A stretch of 52,822 bases of DNA from Spirochaetota bacterium (lineage in GTDB: Bacteria; Spirochaetota; UBA4802; UB4802). The position numbers were made by a program, and so were the translations under genes. The notes beneath the pieces were generated by a model. That model was not told the origin of the DNA. It worked only from the letters and a program-made list of their open reading frames with translations, and did not search any database. The stretch is taken from assembly GCA_026414805.1 (NCBI GenBank), contig JAOAIH010000011.1, positions 1-52,822 of the forward strand, written 5' to 3'. This document shows positions 2,363 to 14,965 of this stretch, one piece after another. Every line of letters begins with the position of its first letter. Position 1 is the first letter of the stretch.

Positions 2363-3553
2363 TTACACCTGATATCCCCAGTCCTGTTTTATCAAGCTTA
2401 AACATACACCGTGGGCAATTGCTTCGGTCTTTATGCTTTGGAATTCTATTAACGCCCGCTTATACATTGTTATGTATCCGGTATCATGAAATATGTCTTT
2501 TATGTGAATATCTATCTGAGCAACTGGATCATTGTATATTTCAAACAAATCCCCGGTAAGGAGTATGTAATCCGGTGAAAAAACATTTATCACATCAAGT
2601 AATGCTTCAGAAAAATATTTTAAGGCTATATCAAGTTTTTCAAATATGCCTTTAGTTCTATTAGTATAATGATGATTAAGTTTGATAATTATGTTATCAT
2701 AGCATTCATTTTCGTCTATGATGTTTTCCCCCTTCAACAGATTTACAAATGCTTCATATGAAAAATAACAATCAAGGCAGCCATTTCTTCCACAGATGCA
2801 TTTGTGGTTTTCATTGCTGACTTTTATATGGCCAATCTCCCCTCTACTATTAACTATCGCCCCTTTATAAATTAAACCCAGTGCACTTGCAGCACGTGCC
2901 GAAACTACCATTATCCTGTCATATCGTTGATTAATATCTGATGTTGAAAGTATATACGATATCATACTACTGATATTATGATCAAAAAAAATACGAGTAT
3001 TGGGGAATTTACTTGATAACAATGACATTAAATTAAAATCTTTTAGCTGAGGCATGAGTGTATATGAACGTAAGATACCGTTTTTTGTATCAATGTCGCC
3101 AGGGACAGTACAACCAACGGCAACTAGATTTGTAGCAAAAACAGGGTTTTTTGATAGCACTTCATCAATTTGTTGCACTATGATACTAGTGAATTCTTCT
3201 TTTGTGATGTTGCCTGGAATTCCTATTTTAGAAGTAGCTAGTACCTTATTGCTGAAACTTACTATGGATGTATACACTGCCTTCTGATTAAAGGTTATTC
3301 CTAAATATACCTGCTTTTCATGATTGAGTGTGTAAAACAAAGCTTTACGGCCTTTATCCTTTTGCTTGCCTTCTGTAGGCACTATTATACCTGTATTTTT
3401 TAATATTTTAAACGAAGTCATGACAGTATCCATGGAATACCCTGAATACCGCTTTGCTTCAGCTTTTGATAACGTAGAATGTTGCCTAAAAATGTCGACT
3501 ATATGCTTTCGTTTATTTTCTTTTCTTTTGTTTATTTTTTCACCATGTGCCAT
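2363..3553 (-). CDS. ROK-family (NagC/XylR-type) transcriptional repressor
   Basis: DNA-binding ROK regulator of 396 residues, the normal length. A winged helix-turn-helix occupies about residues 15-70 (LSKAEAKRYSGYSMDTV region). The ROK fold follows, with GEIGH at 238-242 and the zinc site CICGRNGC at 252-259 (His242, Cys252, Cys254, Cys259). The ATP-binding DxGxT motif of ROK kinases is absent, so this is a regulator and not a sugar kinase. It is transcribed divergently from the GPH importer gene, and an ATCG-ATAA-CGAT palindrome sits in the shared promoter region. I infer that it represses the sulfoquinovose locus and perhaps itself, released by a sugar such as SQ, sulfofructose or an SQ glycoside. 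The ligand cannot be read from sequence. Confidence 0.9.
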   Translation of the reverse strand: MAHGEKINKRKENKRKHIVDIFRQHSTLSKAEAKRYSGYSMDTVMTSFKILKNTGIIVPTEGKQKDKGRKALFYTLNHEKQVYLGITFNQKAVYTSIVSFSNKVLATSKIGIPGNITKEEFTSIIVQQIDEVLSKNPVFATNLVAVGCTVPGDIDTKNGILRSYTLMPQLKDFNLMSLLSSKFPNTRIFFDHNISSMISYILSTSDINQRYDRIMVVSARAASALGLIYKGAIVNSRGEIGHIKVSNENHKCICGRNGCLDCYFSYEAFVNLLKGENIIDENECYDNIIIKLNHHYTNRTKGIFEKLDIALKYFSEALLDVINVFSPDYILLTGDLFEIYNDPVAQIDIHIKDIFHDTGYITMYKRALIEFQSIKTEAIAHGVCLSLIKQDWGYQV

Positions 3554-3581: not shown

Positions 3582-3611
3582 TTGACATATTATCGATAAC
3601 GATTTTATTAT
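3582..3611 (+). promoter_or_regulatory. Promoter of the importer operon with embedded ROK operator
   Basis: TTGACA at 3582-3587 and TATTAT at 3606-3611, 18 bp apart, make a plausible sigma-70 promoter reading towards the transporter gene. The palindromic core ATCG-ATAA-CGAT (3592-3603) lies exactly between the -35 and -10 boxes, where a bound repressor would block RNA polymerase. The sequence TTGACATATTAT is shared with the site at 10617-10628, so the two promoters look built to one plan. Confidence 0.7.
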
Positions 3612-3701
3612 TATACTTACGGTTAAAATTTATAATATAACATTATTGCAAATAATTTTTACTTATGCAACAATTTTTTACAATTTAAAATAGGTATGGT
3701 T

Positions 3702-5141
3702 ATGAATCAAGAAAGAAAAATTACAATCAAGAATTTATTGTCGTATGGTGTGGGTGATATTTTTGGGGGAGGTTCATTTGTTATTATTAATCTTCTTTTC
3801 ATCTATTTCCTTACCGACATTGCCAAATTAAATCCAGCACTTGCTGGGCTTGTGGTACTTGCTGGCAAAGCCTGGGATGCAATCAGTGATCCAATAATGG
3901 GCTATATTTCTGATACCACAAAGTCCCGATATGGCAGGAGGAGAATATTTTTCTTATTGGGAATAATTCCAATTATCCTGAGCTTTATTGCAATGTGGCT
4001 GCCGCTTTCATCTGATAGCCAGATGATAAAATTTTTATATTATGCTTCTGCTTATGTTTTTTTCAGTACTGCTTTCACCATGGTGATGATACCATATTCT
4101 GCACTCAATGCTGAGATGACACGCGAATATAAAGAACGAACACGTTTATCAGGAGCACGTTTGATATTTTCTCAGATATCTTCACTGATTTCAGGGACAG
4201 TTCCCAAAATGATTATAGATAGATTTCAGGATAAAGGTGAAGGCTTTCTAGTAATGAGCATACTATTTGCTATCTTTTTTGCGTTGCCATGGATTATAGT
4301 TTTTTTTGGAACATGGGAATTACCTGATGTCCACATTGAAAATAAATCACTCACAGATTTTTTTAAAAACCTTACTATAATATGGACAAACAAATCCTTC
4401 CGCATTCATATTGGATTGTATATTTGCGCTTACTCAGCACTGGATTTAATTATGGCAATGTTTATTTATTATCTCACGTATTATATACAGAAACCTCAGA
4501 TATTCACAGTGTGTTTGGGTTCAATGCTTGTTACACAGGTTTTGTTTTTGCCTGTATACGTTTTTATTGCAAATAAAAAGGGTAAGGGTTTTTCCTATAG
4601 GGTAGGAGTAAGTATATGGGCGATAGCTCTTGTCAGTACACTCCTGTTTGACAGTAACACTCCAATGTATTATATTGTTGCACTTTCGGTTGTAATGGGT
4701 GCGGGAATGTCGGCAGGCACAATGATTCCTTGGGCAATTTTGCCATCGGTAACTGATGTAGGTGAATTGATTACTGGCAAACAGCAAGCAGGTGTCTATG
4801 CAGGTGCAATGACATTTATACGTAAGCTTGTGCAGGCAATTGTTCTTGCTGTCTTTGGCGCTGTATTAGGAGCAATAGGATATAAAGCGGGAATGATTCA
4901 AAGCCCTGAAACCTTAGAACGATTGCGTTTGTTGTTTGCATTGCTGCCACCATCACTCATGATTTGTGGCATACTGATATCATTACAATTTAAAATCACA
5001 CCAGTAACACATCCAATCCTTATACAGGAGATTAACAGATTAAAAATGGGTGGTAGTAAAGACACAGTTGAACCTCATGTAAAAGAAATTTGCGAAATAT
5101 TAACCGGATATAAATATCAAAATCTCTTTAGAAAGCAATAA
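3702..5141 (+). CDS. GPH-family sugar:cation symporter (probable SQ or SQ-glycoside importer)
   Basis: Inner-membrane transporter of about 479 residues with roughly twelve hydrophobic helices. It belongs to the glycoside-pentoside-hexuronide (MelB-like) family: the helix II motif AWDAISDP (Asp59, Asp63) is followed by GYISD and RYGRRR at about 67-81. Those aspartates bind the coupling cation in MelB. The E. coli SQ importer YihO belongs to the same family, and this gene is immediately followed (12-bp gap) by the isomerase and sulfoquinovosidase genes, so import of SQ or sulfoquinovosyl glycerol is the best inference. ATG 3696 is also open, but ATG 3702 has AGG seven bases upstream. The promoter carries the ROK operator. 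Confidence 0.85.
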   Translation: MNQERKITIKNLLSYGVGDIFGGGSFVIINLLFIYFLTDIAKLNPALAGLVVLAGKAWDAISDPIMGYISDTTKSRYGRRRIFFLLGIIPIILSFIAMWLPLSSDSQMIKFLYYASAYVFFSTAFTMVMIPYSALNAEMTREYKERTRLSGARLIFSQISSLISGTVPKMIIDRFQDKGEGFLVMSILFAIFFALPWIIVFFGTWELPDVHIENKSLTDFFKNLTIIWTNKSFRIHIGLYICAYSALDLIMAMFIYYLTYYIQKPQIFTVCLGSMLVTQVLFLPVYVFIANKKGKGFSYRVGVSIWAIALVSTLLFDSNTPMYYIVALSVVMGAGMSAGTMIPWAILPSVTDVGELITGKQQAGVYAGAMTFIRKLVQAIVLAVFGAVLGAIGYKAGMIQSPETLERLRLLFALLPPSLMICGILISLQFKITPVTHPILIQEINRLKMGGSKDTVEPHVKEICEILTGYKYQNLFRKQ

Positions 5142-5153
5142 CAGAGGTGTGCA

Positions 5154-6470
5154 ATGAAAGAAATTACTCTTGGTGTAGTGTGTGTTGCACGTAAAACATT
5201 TGATTACAATGCAGCAGGTGAAATATTTGCCCGCATACAATCCCAATTGAAAAATGTAAAGGCAGTTCAATGGCACTGTTATGGTGATCTTGTATTTGAA
5301 TTGGAAGATGCTCACAAAGCTATCTCGTTTTTGAAAAAAAAGGATTTGGATGCACTAGTGTGTATTAGTGGTACTTTCCATTTAGGTCATCTTGTGTTGG
5401 AACTAGTTAAACATTTTCCCGTCCCTGTTATGTTGTGGGGATTACCTGAATTGCCCTATGATGGGGGCAAAATACGGCTTAACTCAATTTGTGGTGTTAA
5501 TCTTGATGCAAGCAATCTATACAAGGCGGGAATACGAAATTATTATGCACATTTTGGGAATGCAATTGATACTGACTGGGTAGGTGCAATACGTATTTTA
5601 TCCATGCTTAAAAATGCAAAAATAGGGCTGGCTGGGTATCATGCACATGGCTTTTTTAACATTGATACATGGCAACCCGCACTATATCATCAATTTGGTG
5701 CAATGGTAGATCATTTTGAGTTAGCACAATTATATAATCACCCGGTCAATAAACAGTATGCTGATGAGTATAGGGAAATAATTGAATCAAATTTTGATAC
5801 TGGTGAGATCAATTCAATACAAAAACAAAAGGTCATTGAATTAAGTTCACGACTCAAAAGCTTTATTGAAGACAACAATCTCACTGCACTTGCTATTCGT
5901 TGCTGGCCTGAATTTGCAGCGCAATTTGGCATTGCACCGTGTGCAGCAATGTCACTTGTGCAGGCTCATGATCTTATTATTGCCTGCGAAGGGGATGTAG
6001 ATGGTGCAATATCTATGTTAGCTCACAAAGCGATAGGTGCTCAAACCCCATTTTTATTTGATTTTTCACAAGTGAACCTTGATGAAAATTTTGCATTGCT
6101 ATGGCATTGCGGAGTTGCACCGTTTGTGCTTAAAGATACCGCAAACCAGGCTTCGCTGGATACGTATTTTGCTGCAGGAAAAGGTGTCACTACAGGCTTT
6201 GTCTTGAAGCCTGGTGATGTCTCAATATGCAGATTTGATTTTGATGGCAGTAACTATCGCTTGCTCTTATTAAAAGCGCATGGCGTCACTATGGATAAAT
6301 TGTTAAAGGGAACATTCTTAAAGGTTACCTTTGATATGCCTGTTAGAAAAGTTCTTGATACCATAATTTATAATGGCATAGCACATCACGCATCAATGGT
6401 GTATGGGGATTATATAAAACCATTAGAGATAGCAGCCAGAATAAAGGGGTGGGAGATAGTGACATGTTAA
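5154..6470 (+). CDS. L-fucose/L-arabinose isomerase-like protein, proposed sulfoquinovose isomerase
   Basis: Cytoplasmic aldose-ketose isomerase of 438 residues, related to the fucose/arabinose isomerase superfamily. The C-terminal half carries the metal-site pattern of that family: ACEGDVDGA (Glu279), LFDFSQ (Asp303), WHCG (His318) and a late His-His pair (411-412). In transaldolase and transketolase sulfoglycolysis the SQ-to-sulfofructose step is done by isomerases of this superfamily (SftI/SqvD/SqwD). It is shorter than FucI (about 590) and close to AraA-like proteins. It sits between a GPH importer and a sulfoquinovosidase, overlapping the latter by 7 bp, so translation is probably coupled. 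The exact substrate is inferred from context; a pentose or fucose isomerase remains the alternative. Confidence 0.78.
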   Translation: MKEITLGVVCVARKTFDYNAAGEIFARIQSQLKNVKAVQWHCYGDLVFELEDAHKAISFLKKKDLDALVCISGTFHLGHLVLELVKHFPVPVMLWGLPELPYDGGKIRLNSICGVNLDASNLYKAGIRNYYAHFGNAIDTDWVGAIRILSMLKNAKIGLAGYHAHGFFNIDTWQPALYHQFGAMVDHFELAQLYNHPVNKQYADEYREIIESNFDTGEINSIQKQKVIELSSRLKSFIEDNNLTALAIRCWPEFAAQFGIAPCAAMSLVQAHDLIIACEGDVDGAISMLAHKAIGAQTPFLFDFSQVNLDENFALLWHCGVAPFVLKDTANQASLDTYFAAGKGVTTGFVLKPGDVSICRFDFDGSNYRLLLLKAHGVTMDKLLKGTFLKVTFDMPVRKVLDTIIYNGIAHHASMVYGDYIKPLEIAARIKGWEIVTC

Positions 6471-8449
6471 AAGTAGACTATAATGAAACATCCTTTTCAG
6501 TTTATTACAAAAATCGCTGTATATTGAAGCATTCATTACAAAAGCCGTGTATAGCATTAGGTAATGGTACTGCTGTATATACAATGAAAGAAGGCAATTT
6601 TACAATAAAAGATTCCATTTTGTTTAAACAGTACCTTACACAATTTACAGTAAAGGAATATACTGGTTCAATCATAGTAGAATTTGAAGATGTTTTAACT
6701 TTAAAAATTACTGCAGATACCTACTGTACTATTGCAATTGAAGCTAAAAATCAGTTTAACAGATTTTGGTTACATTGTGTAGCCGACAGCAATGAGCATA
6801 TATATGGCTGTGGAGAACAGTTTTCAAAACTGAATTTAAAGAAAAGAAAGTTACCTTTGTGGGTAAGAGAGCAGGGAGTAGGGCGGGGGCACGATTTAAT
6901 TACGCTGTTAGCTAATATTTTATACGATGCTGGTGGTTGCTGGTATACTACATACTATCCACAACCAACATTTGTATCGAGCAACAATTACTTTGTCCAC
7001 TGCAATGCGTCTTCATATGCTGAGTTTACATTTAAGAAAAAAGAACACATCCTTCATTTCTTGCAGATACCGGATTCGATAGTTGTCGGTGTATACAATA
7101 CTCCGGTTGAATGCATAAAAGCAGTAGGTGATTTGTTGGGGCGACAGCCACGGCTGCCTCAGTGGGTACACGATGGGATGTGGTTAGGTGTGCAAGGTGG
7201 TATAGATGTTGTAAAGAAAAAACTCCAAAAGGCCCAAGATGCAGGTGTTAAAGTATCTGCGGTGTGGGTGCAGGATTGGGTTGGCAGAAGAATCACATGG
7301 TTTGGGAAACGCCTTTTCTGGAACTGGAAATATAATAACGAGTTATATCCCAATCTGCCATCATTTATTCAGGAGCTATCGCATAAAAATATTAAATTTT
7401 TAGGGTACATTAATTGCTTTTTAAATTCTGAAGGCGATTTATATAAAGAAGCAGTAGAAAAGGGATATTTAGTAAAAAACAAAGACGAATCAGTATATCA
7501 GTTTGATACCACTGGTATTATTGCAGGAATTTTAGATTTAACCAATCCCCATACGTGTACCTGGATAAAAAATGTAATTAAAGATAATATGATCGGCATT
7601 GGCATTGCTGGCTGGATGGCTGATTTTGGTGAGTATTTAGAAACTGATGTAAAGCTATATTCAGGTGAATCAGCTGAAATGTATCATAACAGATATCCGG
7701 CTGAATGGGCTCGAGTCAATTATGAAGCGCTTCAGGAAGCAGGTAAAGTTGGAGAAGTAGTATTTTTTACCCGTGCAGGATACACTGGCTCATCACACTA
7801 CAGCACATTAGTGTGGGCAGGCGATCAGCTTGTCAACTGGAGTATGGATGATGGATTGGCTTCCGTTATTCCTGCTGGTATTTCACTTGGATTTTGTGGG
7901 GTTGGATATTTTCACTCAGATATAGGTGGATATACGTCATTAGCCTGGATTAAGCGCAAAAAAGAGCTTTTTATGCGATGGGCAGAATTAGGTGCATTTA
8001 CTGCAGTTATGCGCACGCATGAAGGAAATAGGCCAGATTCAAATTGGCAATTTGACAGCGATAACCAAACTCTTCAGCATCTGTCAAAAATGACTAAAGT
8101 TCACGCTGCACTCAAACCATATATTGAACACTGTAAGGACGAATATCACACCAAAGGGTTACCCTTGATGCGACACCCTTTTATACATTATCCTGAAGAT
8201 AAAAGGCTCCATTCCTTTCAGTATCAGTATTTATTTGGCCGTGATATATTTGTGGCACCTGTGTATAAACCACGGATAAAAAAGTGGAAGCTATATTTAC
8301 CAAAAGACAGATGGATTCATATATGGACAGCCAAAGAATATGCTGGAGGGTGGGTTACAGTTGCTTCTCCTTTAGGTTATCCTCCGGTTTTTTATAGAAA
8401 AGAGTCAAAATATGCAGATCTTTTTGAGATTATCAAAGATATAAATTAG
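6464..8449 (+). CDS. GH31 alpha-sulfoquinovosidase (YihQ family)
   Basis: Cytoplasmic retaining glycosidase of 661 residues that should release SQ from sulfoquinovosyl glycerides. Aligned from memory to E. coli YihQ (678 residues), the key residues all fall at a constant offset of 18. Nucleophile Asp405 is Asp387 (WMADFGEY) and acid/base Asp472 is Asp454 (WAGDQ). Sulfonate-pocket Arg301/Trp304/Tyr508 are Arg283/Trp286 (GKRLFWNW) and Tyr490. Sugar contacts Gln262, Gln288 and His537 are Gln244, Gln270 and His519. The KRxxW pocket separates SQases from ordinary alpha-glucosidases. There is no signal peptide, so the glycoside must be imported. GTG 6449 is open, but ATG 6464 has GGGAG upstream and overlaps the preceding stop by 7 bp. 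Confidence 0.92.
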   Translation: MLKVDYNETSFSVYYKNRCILKHSLQKPCIALGNGTAVYTMKEGNFTIKDSILFKQYLTQFTVKEYTGSIIVEFEDVLTLKITADTYCTIAIEAKNQFNRFWLHCVADSNEHIYGCGEQFSKLNLKKRKLPLWVREQGVGRGHDLITLLANILYDAGGCWYTTYYPQPTFVSSNNYFVHCNASSYAEFTFKKKEHILHFLQIPDSIVVGVYNTPVECIKAVGDLLGRQPRLPQWVHDGMWLGVQGGIDVVKKKLQKAQDAGVKVSAVWVQDWVGRRITWFGKRLFWNWKYNNELYPNLPSFIQELSHKNIKFLGYINCFLNSEGDLYKEAVEKGYLVKNKDESVYQFDTTGIIAGILDLTNPHTCTWIKNVIKDNMIGIGIAGWMADFGEYLETDVKLYSGESAEMYHNRYPAEWARVNYEALQEAGKVGEVVFFTRAGYTGSSHYSTLVWAGDQLVNWSMDDGLASVIPAGISLGFCGVGYFHSDIGGYTSLAWIKRKKELFMRWAELGAFTAVMRTHEGNRPDSNWQFDSDNQTLQHLSKMTKVHAALKPYIEHCKDEYHTKGLPLMRHPFIHYPEDKRLHSFQYQYLFGRDIFVAPVYKPRIKKWKLYLPKDRWIHIWTAKEYAGGWVTVASPLGYPPVFYRKESKYADLFEIIKDIN

Positions 8450-8495: not shown

Positions 8496-8611
8496 GTAGT
8501 TAATATTAAATAAAAAATAATTTGGCATAAGTAATTTATTGTTAGTTACTATGTGTTTTATATAGCATGCTTTTGTGGGATAAATTTTATTTAAATTTGG
8601 AGGATATTATA

Positions 8612-9304
8612 ATGTCACTAAAAAAAATTATAGTATCAATCATTGTTATTATAACGCTATATTCAATTGTTATTGGCAACACTGGAAGATATAATCTTAT
8701 CAAAAACAATATATTAACAATATGTGAATGGGAAAATGCAGGAGCAACATCAACATTAATAGATAGTAAAGATGCTACCAGATATGAACCTAATAAAATA
8801 TTTGATGGTGATATCAAAACTGCCTGGGCAGAAGGTGATAAGGGACCAGGTATTGGCGTTAAAGTTGTGTTTGAGATTCCCACTCCCGGCTATTCAACTA
8901 ATCTTTCAAACGGTGCTAAAATAATGAATATAGTAAATGGACTTGCATATTCTAAACAGCTATTTTATTCTAATAACAGGATCAAAGATCTAACCTTAGA
9001 ATATTATGTTGGGGTTGATATTGGAGAGGAAGAGAACAACTGTTCTCGTTATGTATTGTATTTGTATGATACAAAATCGTATACTTTAAAAGATACCATG
9101 GATAAACAAAGTTTAAACCTCAATATAAATTTTGAAAAAGCTAAAAATTTCTGGAAGCAATCACGAGATATTGCCCGAAAAAAAGGATATAAAGTTTTTG
9201 AAGGTGACTATGGACGATATTTGTTTGGAGTACTAACGATAAAAAGCATTTATAAAGGCACTAAATATGATGATACCTGCATAAGTGAAATTTCTTTTGA
9301 ATAA
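8612..9304 (+). CDS. Exported protein with discoidin-like (NADase-type glycan-binding) domain
   Basis: Protein of 230 residues of unknown function. An N-terminal hydrophobic segment (about 4-25) is a signal peptide or anchor. The mature part contains ATSTLIDSKDATRYEPNKIF, then DGDIKTAWAEGDKGPGIG. That pattern (variable strand, D-G-x-x-x-T-A-W, then a G-rich turn) resembles the F5/8-type-C-like domain found in many exported spirochaetal proteins. It probably binds a glycan or other surface ligand. ATG 8567 is open, but ATG 8612 has GGAGG at 8599-8603 and begins the signal sequence. It stands alone between the glycosidase and the metallo-hydrolase genes, and I see no ROK operator in front of it. 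Confidence 0.6.
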   Translation: MSLKKIIVSIIVIITLYSIVIGNTGRYNLIKNNILTICEWENAGATSTLIDSKDATRYEPNKIFDGDIKTAWAEGDKGPGIGVKVVFEIPTPGYSTNLSNGAKIMNIVNGLAYSKQLFYSNNRIKDLTLEYYVGVDIGEEENNCSRYVLYLYDTKSYTLKDTMDKQSLNLNINFEKAKNFWKQSRDIARKKGYKVFEGDYGRYLFGVLTIKSIYKGTKYDDTCISEISFE

Positions 9305-9603: not shown

Positions 9604-10608
9604 TTGAAGCTATCATATAAAATATCAAATATCAATAATACAATATATAGAATTTCATTACCATTACCAGGATATCCTCCATATATAAATGTATATCTCT
9701 TTAAAGGTGAAGTTAATACTTTATTTGATACGGGGATTTACTGGACATGGCGTTTATTACGCAACGCTTTAAAAGAGCTGGGTTTGCAATTTTCCGATAT
9801 TCATCAGATTATTCCATCACATGGGCATGTGGACCACTATGGTGCAGCGTATGCGATAGTTAATAAAAATAAATATGCAGCAGTAATAGCACATAATGCT
9901 GATTCAAAGCGTATAGAAGAAGGCATATATGCAAAGCCTTTAGATATGCTTCGCTTTATAACTGCAATGGGTGTTCCAACACCGTTAATTGTACCACTTG
10001 CATTTCTTGATGTTATATTCAAATCAATGGGACACACTGTTACAGTTACTAAAAAAATTGTTGGTGATGAGTTTTCTATATTAGTTGGGAATTATAATGC
10101 CAAATTACTATTAACACCGGGGCATTCTAAAGGAGCAATGTGTTTATACATTGAAAAAGAAGGATTTTTATTTTCTGGTGATCACATTGTACCTGGTGTA
10201 AAACCTATCATATTGGCTGGTTTTGAACCAAATACTTCATTTCCCGTTTGGCAAAGCCATACCATATTTCATAATTCTTTGAAGAAAATTGAAAAATTAA
10301 ATCCAAAATATATATTTCCTGCTCATGGCGAACCATTCCAGGAGAAATTGAGTCGTTTAATATCAAAATACCTGAAGGTATATCAATTCAGAAGAAAAAG
10401 AATGTTTAATCTATTACTCAATAATGACTATACAGTATATAGTCTTGCTCGTAATGTTTTTAAAAACCTTAAAGGGGTAAATCTGGTACTTGATTTATAT
10501 CTTTCATTATCTGAAACTTATACTCATCTTGAAGCGATGTGCAATGAAGGTGAGGTTATACGATATAAATTTGATAAGGTATATTATTATACAGCTTCAT
10601 TATTATAA
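9604..10608 (+). CDS. Metallo-beta-lactamase-fold hydrolase
   Basis: Cytoplasmic metallo-hydrolase of 334 residues. The zinc-site motifs are intact: SHGHVDH (His73, His75, Asp77, His78), TPGHSKGAM, FSGDH and PAHGEP. A C-terminal helical segment (about 260-334) resembles the winged-helix tail seen in glyoxalase-II/LACTB2-like hydrolases. Substrate is unknown; thioesters, lactones or RNA ends are handled by relatives. The TTG at 9604 is the likely start, with AAGGG five bases upstream and no in-frame ATG near it. It lies inside the sulfoquinovose locus but carries no visible ROK operator, so membership in the pathway is open. Confidence 0.8.
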   Translation: MKLSYKISNINNTIYRISLPLPGYPPYINVYLFKGEVNTLFDTGIYWTWRLLRNALKELGLQFSDIHQIIPSHGHVDHYGAAYAIVNKNKYAAVIAHNADSKRIEEGIYAKPLDMLRFITAMGVPTPLIVPLAFLDVIFKSMGHTVTVTKKIVGDEFSILVGNYNAKLLLTPGHSKGAMCLYIEKEGFLFSGDHIVPGVKPIILAGFEPNTSFPVWQSHTIFHNSLKKIEKLNPKYIFPAHGEPFQEKLSRLISKYLKVYQFRRKRMFNLLLNNDYTVYSLARNVFKNLKGVNLVLDLYLSLSETYTHLEAMCNEGEVIRYKFDKVYYYTASLL

Positions 10609-10691: not shown

Positions 10692-12137
10692 ATGACAATG
10701 GAGCAGGGTAGAAGAAAAATAATCTATTTGATAGTTGCTATTGCAGCAGCCTGTGTAATTGTTTTGTTACCATTAGAAACACTAATTGTAGCAGGCAACG
10801 ATATACAATTAACAACAACCGGAAAAAAAGCACTGGCTATTTTAGTATTTGCCGTCATATCCTGGGTAACCGAAATTATGCCATTTGCAATTACTGGCTT
10901 GTTATCTCTTTCGCTTTTGGTGATAGCTGGATGTGCTAATCTGGCTGACCTTATCAAGGAGGGATTTGGTAATCAGGTAATAGTATTTTTTATTGGTGTA
11001 ATGATAATAGGTGCCATAGTTAATGAAACATCCTTCATTGCAAAGGCAACACATTATATTTACAAAAAATATTATAATAATCCAAAAATATTAATACTCA
11101 TAGTATTATTTACAGGAATGTTACTTGCCGGTTTTGTTACCGAAATGGCTGCTGCTGCAATGCTGCTTCCTTTTTCAGTATCCATTTTAAAGAAAGCACA
11201 GGTTGAACCTTTGAAAAATGATTTTGGAAAAGCTCTGATGATTGCATGCGGATGGGGACCAGTAATAGGTGGTATCGCAACACCAGCAGGTTCTGGAGCT
11301 AATCCAATGACTATCAGTTTTTTAAAAGATCTTGCAAATATTAAATTAACCTTTGTTGATTGGATGCTTGTTGGATTTCCTGCAGCTTTGTTAATGTTAC
11401 CATTTGCATGGATTATTTTAATCAAAAGCTTTGATGTATCTTCAGTTACTATCGCTCCAAATGAAGAAAAGATACCAATGCCAGTTACAAAAAAAGATAT
11501 AATTATTGGGATTCTTTTTATTATTACCGTATCACTGTGGATTTTTGAACCATTAATTCATAGCCTTTTTCCCGCTTTACAATTCATAAACATGTCATTT
11601 GTAGCGTTAACAATTTCATGCCTTATGTTTTTACCAGGTATCTCACCCATAAGCTGGCAAAAGATTGAAAAATCCATAAACTGGGGTGCAATAATTCTAA
11701 TTGTTTCGGGATTAGCTATTGGATCAACTATATATACAACGGGTGTTGCTAAATGGCTTGCATGTTTATTTTTCAGCCATCTGAATGTATTGCATCCTGT
11801 TGTAATGGTCTTTGTGATAGTTCTTGGAGTTTCAATTATTAAAGTATTGTTTTCAAGCAATACGGTTACTAGTATTATTATGGTTCCACTATTGATTGCT
11901 CTGTCAACTACTATTGGTATAAGCACTTCGCTTGTTGCAATACCTGCAGGATTAACTTCATCATTATCATTTATTCTTGTAACATCAACTCCAACAATTG
12001 TCATTCCTTACTCTGCAGGATACTTTTCAATATCTGATATGGTAAAACCTGGGATATACATGACTATAATTTCGTCGGTATGTGTTACAATAAGTTTTCT
12101 GGTGTTTGGTACTTTGTTTAATATAATAACATGGTAA
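10692..12137 (+). CDS. DASS/SLC13-family anion transporter
   Basis: Inner-membrane protein of 481 residues with about eleven to twelve hydrophobic helices, of the divalent anion:sodium symporter family. The two repeat signatures are visible: TPAGSGANPMT in the first half (about residue 200), in the place of the usual SNT-T-P hairpin, and SSNTVTSIIMVPL (about residue 395) in the second. Relatives carry dicarboxylates, sulfate or sulfonates. As first gene of the operon that makes sulfoacetaldehyde, it could export the C2-sulfonate end product (isethionate or sulfoacetate) or import an anion; direction cannot be read from sequence. The Shine-Dalgarno sequence before ATG 10692 (or ATG 10698) is poor. 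Confidence 0.82.
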   Translation: MTMEQGRRKIIYLIVAIAAACVIVLLPLETLIVAGNDIQLTTTGKKALAILVFAVISWVTEIMPFAITGLLSLSLLVIAGCANLADLIKEGFGNQVIVFFIGVMIIGAIVNETSFIAKATHYIYKKYYNNPKILILIVLFTGMLLAGFVTEMAAAAMLLPFSVSILKKAQVEPLKNDFGKALMIACGWGPVIGGIATPAGSGANPMTISFLKDLANIKLTFVDWMLVGFPAALLMLPFAWIILIKSFDVSSVTIAPNEEKIPMPVTKKDIIIGILFIITVSLWIFEPLIHSLFPALQFINMSFVALTISCLMFLPGISPISWQKIEKSINWGAIILIVSGLAIGSTIYTTGVAKWLACLFFSHLNVLHPVVMVFVIVLGVSIIKVLFSSNTVTSIIMVPLLIALSTTIGISTSLVAIPAGLTSSLSFILVTSTPTIVIPYSAGYFSISDMVKPGIYMTIISSVCVTISFLVFGTLFNIITW

Positions 12138-12207
12138 GTGTACAAATACATTGTGATTAAAAATTTTTTAATTTTTTGTGCGATAGTTACTGTTAATGGA
12201 GGCTTTC

Positions 12208-13050
12208 ATGAATACAATATCAACTGCACAACTTGAATCTTTGGCAAAAGAATTCCGCTATGTTATAACTGACATGATTTGCCGCGCTGGCTCGGGCCAC
12301 TTAGGTGGTTCACTGAGTTTAGTGGAAATTGTCATGACATTGTATTACCGTATAATGAATGTTAAACCAGACAATCCAACCTGGGAAGATCGCGATAGGT
12401 TGGTATTATCCAAAGGTCATGCTGGGCCGGTATTGTATGTTGTACTGGCATATTTGGGATTTTTTCCTAAAACCTGGCTTAAAACGCTAAATCAAAATGG
12501 CACAAATTTGCCAAGTCATGTAGATCATAATAAAACACCTGGTATAGATATGACTGCGGGGTCATTAGGGCAGGGATTATCTTGCGCTTGTGGTATGGCA
12601 TATGCAGCAAAATTAAACAATAAAAGCCATAATGTATTCTGCATTATTGGCGATGGTGAAAGCAATGAAGGTCAGATATGGGAAGCAGCAATGTTTGCAG
12701 GTCATAATAAACTGGATAATCTTGTTGTAATATGTGATTATAACAAAATGCAAATTGATGGTTTAACAGATGATGTTGTTACATTAGAACCATTAGCAGA
12801 TAAATGGCGAGCTTTCAATTTTGAAGTATTTGAAATGGATGGTCATAACTGGGATGATATTTATTCAACAATTAATAAAGCAATTTCAGTACAAGGGAAA
12901 CCATCAATGATAATTGCACACACAGTGAAAGGAAAAGGAAATGCTGAAGTAGAGAATAAAGTTGCAAGCCATAATATTAAAATTAATAATCAGGCAGATT
13001 ATGATAAGTACATGAAAGGCCTGGGATATACAATTGAATTACCATATTGA
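12208..13050 (+). CDS. Transketolase N-terminal (TPP-binding) subunit, proposed SqwG-type
   Basis: Thiamine-diphosphate-binding half of a split transketolase, 280 residues. Motifs: SGHLGGSLS (29-37), SKGHAGPVLY (68-77), TAGSLGQGLS (116-125) and the TPP/Mg motif starting GDGESNEG (148) and ending at DYN (177-179). GGAGG at 12198-12202 sets the start at ATG 12208; the upstream ATG 12196 precedes the Shine-Dalgarno and is rejected. It forms a heterodimer with the product of 13194-14132. In the sulfo-TK pathway a two-subunit enzyme (SqwGH) takes C2 units from 6-deoxy-6-sulfofructose and then from 4-deoxy-4-sulfoerythrulose onto glyceraldehyde-3-phosphate. An ordinary pentose-phosphate transketolase cannot be excluded from the sequence alone. 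Confidence 0.85.
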   Translation: MNTISTAQLESLAKEFRYVITDMICRAGSGHLGGSLSLVEIVMTLYYRIMNVKPDNPTWEDRDRLVLSKGHAGPVLYVVLAYLGFFPKTWLKTLNQNGTNLPSHVDHNKTPGIDMTAGSLGQGLSCACGMAYAAKLNNKSHNVFCIIGDGESNEGQIWEAAMFAGHNKLDNLVVICDYNKMQIDGLTDDVVTLEPLADKWRAFNFEVFEMDGHNWDDIYSTINKAISVQGKPSMIIAHTVKGKGNAEVENKVASHNIKINNQADYDKYMKGLGYTIELPY

Positions 13051-13193: not shown

Positions 13194-14132
13194 ATGAACT
13201 ATCAAGATATGGAAATGCGTGCAGTGTATGGATTAACATTATGTGAACTTATGGAAAATGATAAAAATGTATTGTGTTTAGAAGCCGATTTAAGCAAAGC
13301 ATCGGGAACAAATCCTGCTGTATGTACAGCATATCCACAAAATTTTATTAATGTTGGTGTTGCCGAAGCCAATATGATTGGGCTTGCTGCTGGCCTTGCG
13401 CGTGAAGGGAAAATTCCAATTTGTGCAAGCTTTACTTGCTTTGCTTCCCGCCGAGTATATGACCAGATTACTATCAGCGTTGCTTATGCAAATACTAATG
13501 TTAAAATAGTTGGCACAGCACCTGGTATTACACAGGGGCCAAATGGTGGCACTCATATGGATTTTCTTGATCTTGCTATCATGCGTGCAATGCCAAATAT
13601 GCATGTATATAGTCCCTGCGATGTATATGAACTGAGAGCTGTTATGAAGTATATGGCAACACATTATCAACCCACATACATGCAGTTATTGCGCGCAAAG
13701 ATGCCTACTGTATTTGATGAAAGCTTTGAATTTAATCCAAAAAAAGCAACTATTGTATCTACAGGAAATGATGTTACTATCGTTACAACAGGATATACAA
13801 CACATTTGGCTGTAAAAGCAGTTAAACAATTAGATGTTGAAGGAATTAAAGCAGAACATATTCATTATAGTTCAATTAAGCCATTTGATGAAAACACTCT
13901 TATTGAATCAGCAAAAAAAACTAAAGCAGTGGTTACTGTTGAAAACCAGAATATAATTGGAGGATTGGGTAGTGCAGTGTGTGAGGTTTTAAGCGAAAAA
14001 TTTCCTGTAAAAGTTAAGCGATTAGGCGTACCAGATCAATTTGGTGAAGTGGCAACTGAAGACTATTTATTAAACAAATATGGATTCAATGTAGAACATA
14101 TTGTAAATGCTTGCAAAGATTTGTTAAGGTGA
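13194..14132 (+). CDS. Transketolase C-terminal subunit, proposed SqwH-type
   Basis: Pyrimidine-binding and C-terminal domains of a split transketolase, 312 residues. INVGVAEANMIGLAAGLA contains the TPP-activating glutamate (Glu58). The loop GITQGPNGGTHMDFLDLA corresponds to the substrate loop with its histidine (THQ in typical enzymes, THM here). The C-terminal domain begins near residue 185. GGGGAG precedes the ATG. It is separated from the partner subunit by 143 bp rather than overlapping, as is common for split transketolases, and is followed by the RpiB-like gene, the same content as the sulfo-TK operons known from Firmicutes. Confidence 0.85.
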   Translation: MNYQDMEMRAVYGLTLCELMENDKNVLCLEADLSKASGTNPAVCTAYPQNFINVGVAEANMIGLAAGLAREGKIPICASFTCFASRRVYDQITISVAYANTNVKIVGTAPGITQGPNGGTHMDFLDLAIMRAMPNMHVYSPCDVYELRAVMKYMATHYQPTYMQLLRAKMPTVFDESFEFNPKKATIVSTGNDVTIVTTGYTTHLAVKAVKQLDVEGIKAEHIHYSSIKPFDENTLIESAKKTKAVVTVENQNIIGGLGSAVCEVLSEKFPVKVKRLGVPDQFGEVATEDYLLNKYGFNVEHIVNACKDLLR

Positions 14133-14255: not shown

Positions 14256-14729
14256 ATGAATTTTGTGATAGGATCTACACGTGCTGGATTACAATTGAAA
14301 CGTTCGATTATAGAATATATGACAAAAAATGGTCACATGGTTGAAGATGTTGGGATGAAGGATGAAGAAAACTTTGTACCATATCACATCGCAGCGGCTA
14401 ATGTTGCTAAGCTAATTTCGCAGGGTAAATATGAAAAAGGCATTATAATTTGTGGGACTGGTGCTGGCAGTGCAATAGTTGCAAATAAGTTCAAAGGAGT
14501 ATACGCAGTACATTGTACTAATTCCTTTGAAGCAAAAAAAGCATCAGCAATAAACAATGCAAATGTTCTTGTACTTGCTGAATGGCTGACACCTGCAAAT
14601 CATGCATTTGAGATAATTTCAGATTGGCTATCAACACCATTTGGTAGCGGTTTTGATGAGGATTGGAAAACATTTTTATCAAACTGCATTGATGAGATTA
14701 AAGACATCGAGGAAATAAATTTTAAATAA
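14256..14729 (+). CDS. RpiB/LacAB-family sugar isomerase, proposed sulfoerythrose isomerase (SqwI-type)
   Basis: Isomerase of 157 residues, typical RpiB length. The catalytic-cysteine loop is intact: IICGTGAGSAIVANKFKG with Cys66. The N-terminal signature differs: RpiB has GxDHxG, whose Asp-His handles ring opening and the sugar, but here it is GSTRAG (residues 6-11), with Thr-Arg in place of Asp-His. In the sulfo-TK pathway an RpiB-family enzyme converts 4-deoxy-4-sulfoerythrose to sulfoerythrulose. The altered pocket fits a non-phosphorylated, sulfonated substrate, but that is inference. AGGAGG precedes the start. It is the last gene of the DASS-transketolase group; 236 bp follow before the next gene, with no strong terminator seen. 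Confidence 0.82.
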   Translation: MNFVIGSTRAGLQLKRSIIEYMTKNGHMVEDVGMKDEENFVPYHIAAANVAKLISQGKYEKGIIICGTGAGSAIVANKFKGVYAVHCTNSFEAKKASAINNANVLVLAEWLTPANHAFEIISDWLSTPFGSGFDEDWKTFLSNCIDEIKDIEEINFK

Positions 14730-14965
14730 TTTACTACAAGTAAAGTAATAGTTATTTTCATTATATATTTTTTTGTATTAAATTATAAATAGTTTTTAAT
14801 TATTATATTTTTAATGTGACATAATATATCTTATCGGAAGTAAAAAGTCTTTATTGTTATCAATGATATTATAGAAATGAAATGTTTATGGACAAAAATA
14901 ATAACAATATTGTATATGTATTATAGTTATAAAAATTAAATTAATAAAAACGGTTTTGAGTTTTA

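Follow-up and report, generated by a model that had tools for sequence, protein, structure and literature searches.

An arginine of probable secondary origin in the sulfoquinovosidase of a spirochaete sulfo-transketolase operon

The sulfoquinovosidase gene and its pocket residues

The window analysed here comprises positions 1–52,822 of contig JAOAIH010000011.1 of a Spirochaetota bacterium (assembly GCA_026414805.1), and the subject of this report is a gene at 6464–8449 (+), its operon, and the origin of one arginine in the substrate pocket of its product. Sulfoquinovosidases (SQases) release the sulfur sugar of plant sulfolipids, sulfoquinovose (SQ), and with high confidence we assign the product to the SQases of glycoside hydrolase family 31 (GH31), because its sequence, its predicted fold, its pocket residues and the neighbouring SQ-isomerase and sulfo-transketolase genes all agree. 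The reading frame is open throughout and encodes 661 amino acids; its start is the same as in sister genomes and overlaps the stop of the preceding isomerase gene by 7 bases, and no signal peptide is seen in the protein. It is 48% identical to Escherichia coli YihQ (MG1655, NP_418314.1; phmmer E 3.6e-212) and 79% identical to the SQase of the metagenome-assembled genome Spirochaetota bacterium A05DMB-I-13, the nearest named relative of the spirochaetal window genome, and it scores 899 bits on the NCBIfam model of YihQ (PRK10426, cutoff 553). The best phmmer matches in the PDB are BmSQase (8R56), YihQ, Eubacterium rectale SftG and the Agrobacterium SQase (E about 1e-165 or better), and every other GH31 protein lies at E 1e-45 or worse. 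The predicted fold gives the same picture: an AlphaFold2 model (mean pLDDT 86.6), made from the protein and 19 relatives, superposes on solved SQases, which fill the first 23 places among PDB chains, with TM scores of 0.94–0.97, as against about 0.7 for other GH31 enzymes (about 0.72 for the xylosidase YicI of E. coli).

A preliminary description of this DNA had placed eight functional residues of YihQ in the protein, each 18 positions earlier than in the reference, and had taken them as the full set of known pocket residues. A pairwise alignment bears out both the residues and the distance, all eight sites being identical: Gln244 (YihQ Gln262; 7193–7195), Gln270 (Gln288; 7271–7273), Arg283 (Arg301; 7310–7312, codon CGC), Trp286 (Trp304; 7319–7321), Asp387 (Asp405; 7622–7624), Asp454 (Asp472; 7823–7825), Tyr490 (Tyr508; 7931–7933) and His519 (His537; 8018–8020), all on the forward strand. 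In YihQ, we take Asp405 to be the nucleophile and Asp472 the acid/base, and Arg301, Trp304 and Tyr508 to hold the sulfonate; by alignment, the protein thus has both the GH31 catalytic pair (Asp387 and Asp454) and the Arg/Trp/Tyr sulfonate pocket. The fixed distance adds no evidence of its own. It runs through 9, 13, 16 and 17 before residue 195 and is 18 throughout thereafter, because the alignment has no gaps beyond that residue and all eight sites lie there, so that one gap-free block amounts to one fact and not eight.

The eight sites are not equally informative. YicI has the same two catalytic aspartates and the same histidine, and its tryptophan aligns with Trp286 in one alignment and not in a larger one, which leaves Gln244, Gln270, Arg283 and Tyr490 as the sites that tell SQases from YicI. 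In an alignment of 109 proteins (YicI and 108 that are SQase-like), conservation reaches 99% or more at seven of the eight sites but only 76% at the Arg283 site, which is Gln in 25 rows. Nor does the set hold for SQases in general, since the Agrobacterium enzyme (5OHY), which shares the fold and the Arg/Trp/Tyr residues, has Lys and Glu at the two Gln sites. YihQ (5AED, 5OHT) is the closer match in this respect, with the same fold, length and eight residues, and also with the acidic Glu366 and Asn54 discussed below. BmSQase and SftG (6PNR), the best sequence and fold matches, likewise have the Arg, Trp, Tyr and acidic partner; these are Firmicute enzymes that resemble the Arg clade, whereas the window enzyme branches outside it.

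The sulfo-transketolase operon

An SQ isomerase, SqwG, SqwH and SqwI occur together in the window, and judged by this gene content the locus is a spirochaete sulfo-transketolase (sulfo-TK) operon. Its first gene encodes a symporter of the GPH/MFS_2 family (3696–5141, +), from its context a likely importer of sulfoquinovosyl glycerol or SQ, and is followed by the gene for a FucI-type, SqvD-like SQ isomerase (5154–6470, +) and by the SQase gene. Downstream, on the same strand, lie genes for an NADase-type glycan-binding (F5/8-like, discoidin-like) domain protein (8567–9304), a metallo-beta-lactamase-fold (MBL) hydrolase (9604–10608), a DASS-family anion transporter that probably exports a C2 sulfonate (10692–12137), the N-terminal subunit SqwG of a split sulfofructose transketolase (12196–13050; 52–55% identical to SqwG of other SQ loci), the C-terminal subunit SqwH (13194–14132; 44–48% to SqwH of SQ loci) and the RpiB-family 4-deoxy-4-sulfoerythrose isomerase SqwI (14256–14729), which was assigned by family match and by its likeness to SQ loci. 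The genome's own second split transketolase is only 34% identical to the SqwH of the operon. A ROK-family regulator gene (2363–3553, –), which each of the genus's five species retains, is divergent from the operon, and the intervening region holds a TTGACA box followed by a TCGATAnCGAT near-palindrome (3582–3603, +) that is invariant in the five species and is a candidate promoter and ROK operator. Gene order is the same in two sister species (G003 and G004), and in a third (G001) as far as the SQase, where the contig ends; the gene at 8567–9304 is absent at this place in the sisters and is an insertion particular to the window. In G004, sqwH has an in-frame TAA near residues 22–30 (L116, G004:C38, at about 15.3–16.2 kb), which may reflect either a broken gene or an assembly error.

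The isomerase belongs to the same superfamily as SftI, with 24–29% identity to the SftI type and with the metal-ligand pattern E279, D303 and H412 conserved, and it scores 222 bits on the SftI equivalog model NF048012, below the curated cutoff of 700. It falls into a second clade of SQ-isomerase-like proteins, members of which are 48–55% identical to it, occur in eight other loci (L009, L026, L036, L055, L061, L063, L072 and L077), and share both the score below the cutoff and the metal-ligand pattern. Among solved structures, 8zxg (a Bacillus paraoxonase) and 2zo4 (MBL family) are nearest to the MBL hydrolase, whose gene adjoins that of the SQase wherever the region is seen (four species), even without the rest of the pathway.

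The sulfo-TK pathway has been described from Clostridium sp. MSTE9 and Acholeplasma (PMC9594981, PMC12890257, PMC11659671), and has already been reported in spirochaetes, including rumen Sphaerochaetaceae (PMC13219744). The window operon shares with the MSTE9 and Acholeplasma systems an SqvD-type isomerase, SqwGH and SqwI together with an SQase, and differs in its ending, where the MBL-fold hydrolase and the DASS transporter stand in place of the known end modules (SqwF with SqwE, or SqwD with SqwKL) and of DUF4867. The YihQ operon, in contrast, is of the sulfo-Embden-Meyerhof-Parnas type.

By these sequence comparisons, the disposal of sulfoacetaldehyde is not encoded by known enzymes within the operon, which contains neither SqwF nor SqwD with SqwKL. 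Genome-wide searches for SqwF, SqwD and SqwK-type proteins gave only weak or generic matches (iron alcohol dehydrogenases at 28–35% and an aldehyde dehydrogenase at 24%). DUF4867 (SqvB/SftX) is common but not universal in sulfo-TK loci; it is missing from the operon and had no match in the genome, although control genomes also gave none, so that its absence is probable only. In other loci, SqwE accompanies SqwF (L072/L183 and L192), and DASS genes accompany SqwD/SqwKL, the sulfoacetate variant (L015, L027, L182, L197 and L198); this company hints at sulfoacetate as the product. A lead, suggestive only, comes from the aldehyde:ferredoxin oxidoreductase (AOR) family: in a comparison of five genomes it has 7–10 matches in each of the four pathway species (G000, G001, G003 and G004), some of them pieces of one gene, and none in G002, a distribution that would be compatible with an AOR oxidising sulfoacetaldehyde. 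Two other candidates were set aside with the help of G002, the species of the genus that has lost the pathway. The iron alcohol dehydrogenases beside AOR on contig C23 are kept there and are therefore unlinked to the pathway, and the MBL hydrolase is disfavoured as a sulfoacetaldehyde or thioester step, since G002 keeps it without SqwGHI.

Arginine and glutamine at the YihQ-301 site

To our knowledge, Arg301 of YihQ is held to be essential for sulfonate recognition. What is new here is that a large clade of relatives has Gln at this site, and that many of its members lie inside complete SQ operons. In this report, we refer to proteins with Arg or Gln at the site as Arg types and Gln types. The Gln types among the aligned proteins are mostly spirochaetal, and the FG-x-(R/Q)-x-x-W-x-W block is ungapped around the site. 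For at least ten genes (L005, L015, L027, L063, L072, L181, L182, L184, L185 and L189), the Gln type is the only GH31 protein seen within a sulfo-TK or sulfo-transaldolase (sulfo-TAL) locus, with SqvD/SftI, SqwGHI, SqwDKL or SqwF alongside. Thus L005, L015 and L027 have SqwGHI and SqwD or SqwKL, L063 has SqvD and SqwGH, L072 has SqvD, SqwGHI, SqwF, SqwE and DUF4867, and L189 is a sulfo-TAL locus. The earlier conclusion that the pocket residues tie the locus to SQ therefore stands for the identity of the enzyme and fails for the Arg, which has Gln counterparts in complete SQ operons; it is the operon that anchors the locus to SQ.

Other Gln types have different surroundings. Fourteen of them, about 740 amino acids long, have lipobox-like N-termini and no SQ genes nearby; exported or lipoprotein-like proteins of this description (L137–L149) come from spirochaetes, and NCBIfam scores one of them (L140) as YihQ. 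Several genomes have both types (among them G244, G357 and G386); there, the Arg type is found in a sulfo-TK operon or next to an SQ isomerase, and the Gln type lies elsewhere beside a GPH transporter. The Gln-type genes may thus not all share one substrate. A few further GH31 relatives (L193, L194 and L174/L200) have rebuilt pockets, with GRQWC or ERRWD for QQRWY, and probably have other specificities.

The window's genus comprises five species that form a clade with 100% support; four have Arg and the fifth, G002, has Gln. Three trees, built without column 283, each require exactly two Arg/Gln changes. The genus lies inside an otherwise all-Gln clade in two of them (SH-aLRT 99) and groups with other Gln rows in the third (82/82), and its nearest outgroups (L005, L006, L181 and L182) are all Gln. 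A single origin of Arg was rejected, as constraining the Arg rows to a single group lowers the log-likelihood by 167 units (p-AU 1e-55) and the grouping is found in 0 of 200 bootstrap trees. Because the genus is nested in a Gln clade and G002 still has Gln, Arg283 would most probably be a second, independent origin, re-acquired from Gln; the pocket residues would accordingly not have been inherited uniformly.

The change appears to be local. In the segment ITWFGK(R/Q)LFWNW, the Arg species and G002 differ only at the R/Q site, and the alternative that the genus took up an Arg-clade segment by recombination was rejected, as the residues on either side are specific to the genus and common to G002. 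G002 also retains the loop TTAFPAG of the Gln clade (TTxFPAG), where the Arg species have DTTGI(I/Q)AG, which marks the latter as the derived ones. The codon at 283 is CGC in the window, CGT, AGG and AGG in the sister species and CAG in G002; these diverged synonymous codons suggest that Arg has been kept for some time in the genus.

Each of the 661 columns was scanned for residue classes that divide the Arg rows from the Gln rows. Besides 283 itself, the only perfect separation is at window position 348 (Asp348, YihQ Glu366; 7505–7507, +), which is acidic in 79/79 Arg rows and in 0/24 Gln rows. Seventeen columns are diagnostic of the YihQ clade as against the Gln rows, and the four Arg species all have the YihQ state at only three, 45, 283 and 348, lacking it at the other 14; the third switched residue, Asn45 (YihQ Asn54; 6596–6598, +), covaries with Arg much as 348 does. 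A new sample of 21 further spirochaete proteins, in which L174 was left uncounted on account of its rebuilt pocket, has an acidic residue at 348 in 9/9 canonical Arg types and 1/11 Gln types, and the pooled counts are 94/94 Arg types and 2/46 Gln-type entries, the two being readings of one gene. The strands assigned in the predicted structure (281–284 and 346–348) would allow a 283–348 contact. An acidic side chain at 348 may orient or balance Arg283 in the sulfonate pocket.

At the locus itself, G002 (93% complete) keeps the ROK regulator, the SQase and the MBL hydrolase, and has lost the importer, the isomerase, DASS, SqwG, SqwH and SqwI. The edges of the deletion show short matches to window positions 12168–12214 and 14807–14848, and no counterpart of SqvD or of the pathway SqwH was found elsewhere in the G002 genome. 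Its SQase (L117, G002:C59, 2111–4450) carries a diverged, second SecG copy as an in-frame N-terminal fusion, and a normal secG is kept elsewhere in the genome; the fusion would place the enzyme at the membrane.

Proposed pathway and alternatives

Taking homology, pocket residues, operon, tree position and covariation together, we consider it probable that the gene encodes an SQase in which the sulfonate-binding Arg re-evolved with an acidic partner. The GPH symporter would import a sulfoquinovoside, most likely sulfoquinovosyl glycerol, and a cytoplasmic, retaining GH31 alpha-sulfoquinovosidase would split it, with Asp387 as nucleophile, Asp454 as acid/base, and the sulfonate held by Arg283, Trp286 and Tyr490. 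The freed SQ would be converted to sulfofructose by the SqvD-like isomerase, and SqwGH and SqwI would then take off two C2 units to leave sulfoacetaldehyde. The enzyme would belong to a clade with Gln at the Arg position, and in the ancestor of four of the five species Gln283 would have become Arg again, together with an acidic 348 and Asn45. The YihQ-type arrangement would in this way have been re-created on a different background, presumably with improved sulfonate binding.

That the enzyme is an ordinary alpha-glucosidase or alpha-xylosidase with a coincidental pocket match is very improbable: NCBIfam does name the family "alpha-glucosidase" and the catalytic residues are common to YicI, but in both fold and sequence it is much closer to SQases than to the rest of GH31, and the gene sits among SQ-isomerase and sulfo-transketolase genes with synteny conserved across species. 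An ordinary YihQ-type SQase, with the whole pocket including Arg inherited from a common SQase ancestor and Gln arising several times by loss, is also unlikely. All characterised SQases with structures have Arg, and the window has the full residue set; however, by manual count on the trees this history needs about five Arg-to-Gln losses against two changes, the sister G002 and the nearest outgroups are Gln, and the Gln lineages L062, the second copy of L192, and L189/L195 branch (in one tree) at the base of the YihQ clade. Somewhat less unlikely, and still doubtful, is a genus ancestor with Arg, Asp348 and Asn45 that were lost from G002 by relaxation as its SQ pathway decayed. G002 is indeed without the pathway genes, and its SQase is otherwise odd, with a Thr before the nucleophile and the fused SecG-like N-terminus, but random loss is not expected to restore the exact Gln-clade residues and the FPAG loop, and within a surrounding clade of Gln types the Arg would even then have been gained on the genus stem.

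A more serious, if tentative, alternative holds that Gln types are not SQases and act on a neighbouring substrate, so that Arg marks a substrate switch within the clade. The lipobox-like Gln types away from SQ genes would fit this, as would the genomes in which the Arg type sits with the SQ genes and the Gln type elsewhere; against it stand the ten or more Gln-type genes that are the only GH31 seen in their sulfo-TK or sulfo-TAL loci. We regard as evenly balanced the broader proposition that Arg301 is replaceable in GH31 sulfoquinovosidases. On this view, members of a large and mostly spirochaetal clade would cleave SQ glycosides with Gln at the site, the ancestral state may have been Gln, and the module of Arg and acid (with Asn) would have evolved twice, in the YihQ lineage and in the window's genus. 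Three observations weigh against re-acquisition with an acidic partner. Asp occurs at 348 in one gene of the Gln type (G374, L164/L185). Arg arose independently only twice in the data, because all YihQ-clade Arg rows go back to a common ancestor, and an independent-pairs sign test (p 0.5) cannot reach significance. Some of the branches among the deep Gln lineages have weak support (82/82).

The functional annotation of sulfoquinovosidases relies on a residue signature, and its most specific member, the Arg, is evolutionarily labile and probably a poorer fingerprint of the family than assumed. Should the Gln types found in SQ operons cleave SQ, a clade escapes the signature; otherwise the family models over-annotate, as PRK10426 scores them far above its cutoff. 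The genus itself contains proteins about 69% identical, of which one kind has Arg and Asp and the other Gln and Val, a natural pair in which the role of the sulfonate Arg and its partner could be tested by a few swaps. The operon, for its part, points to an unassigned route of sulfoacetaldehyde disposal in spirochaetes.

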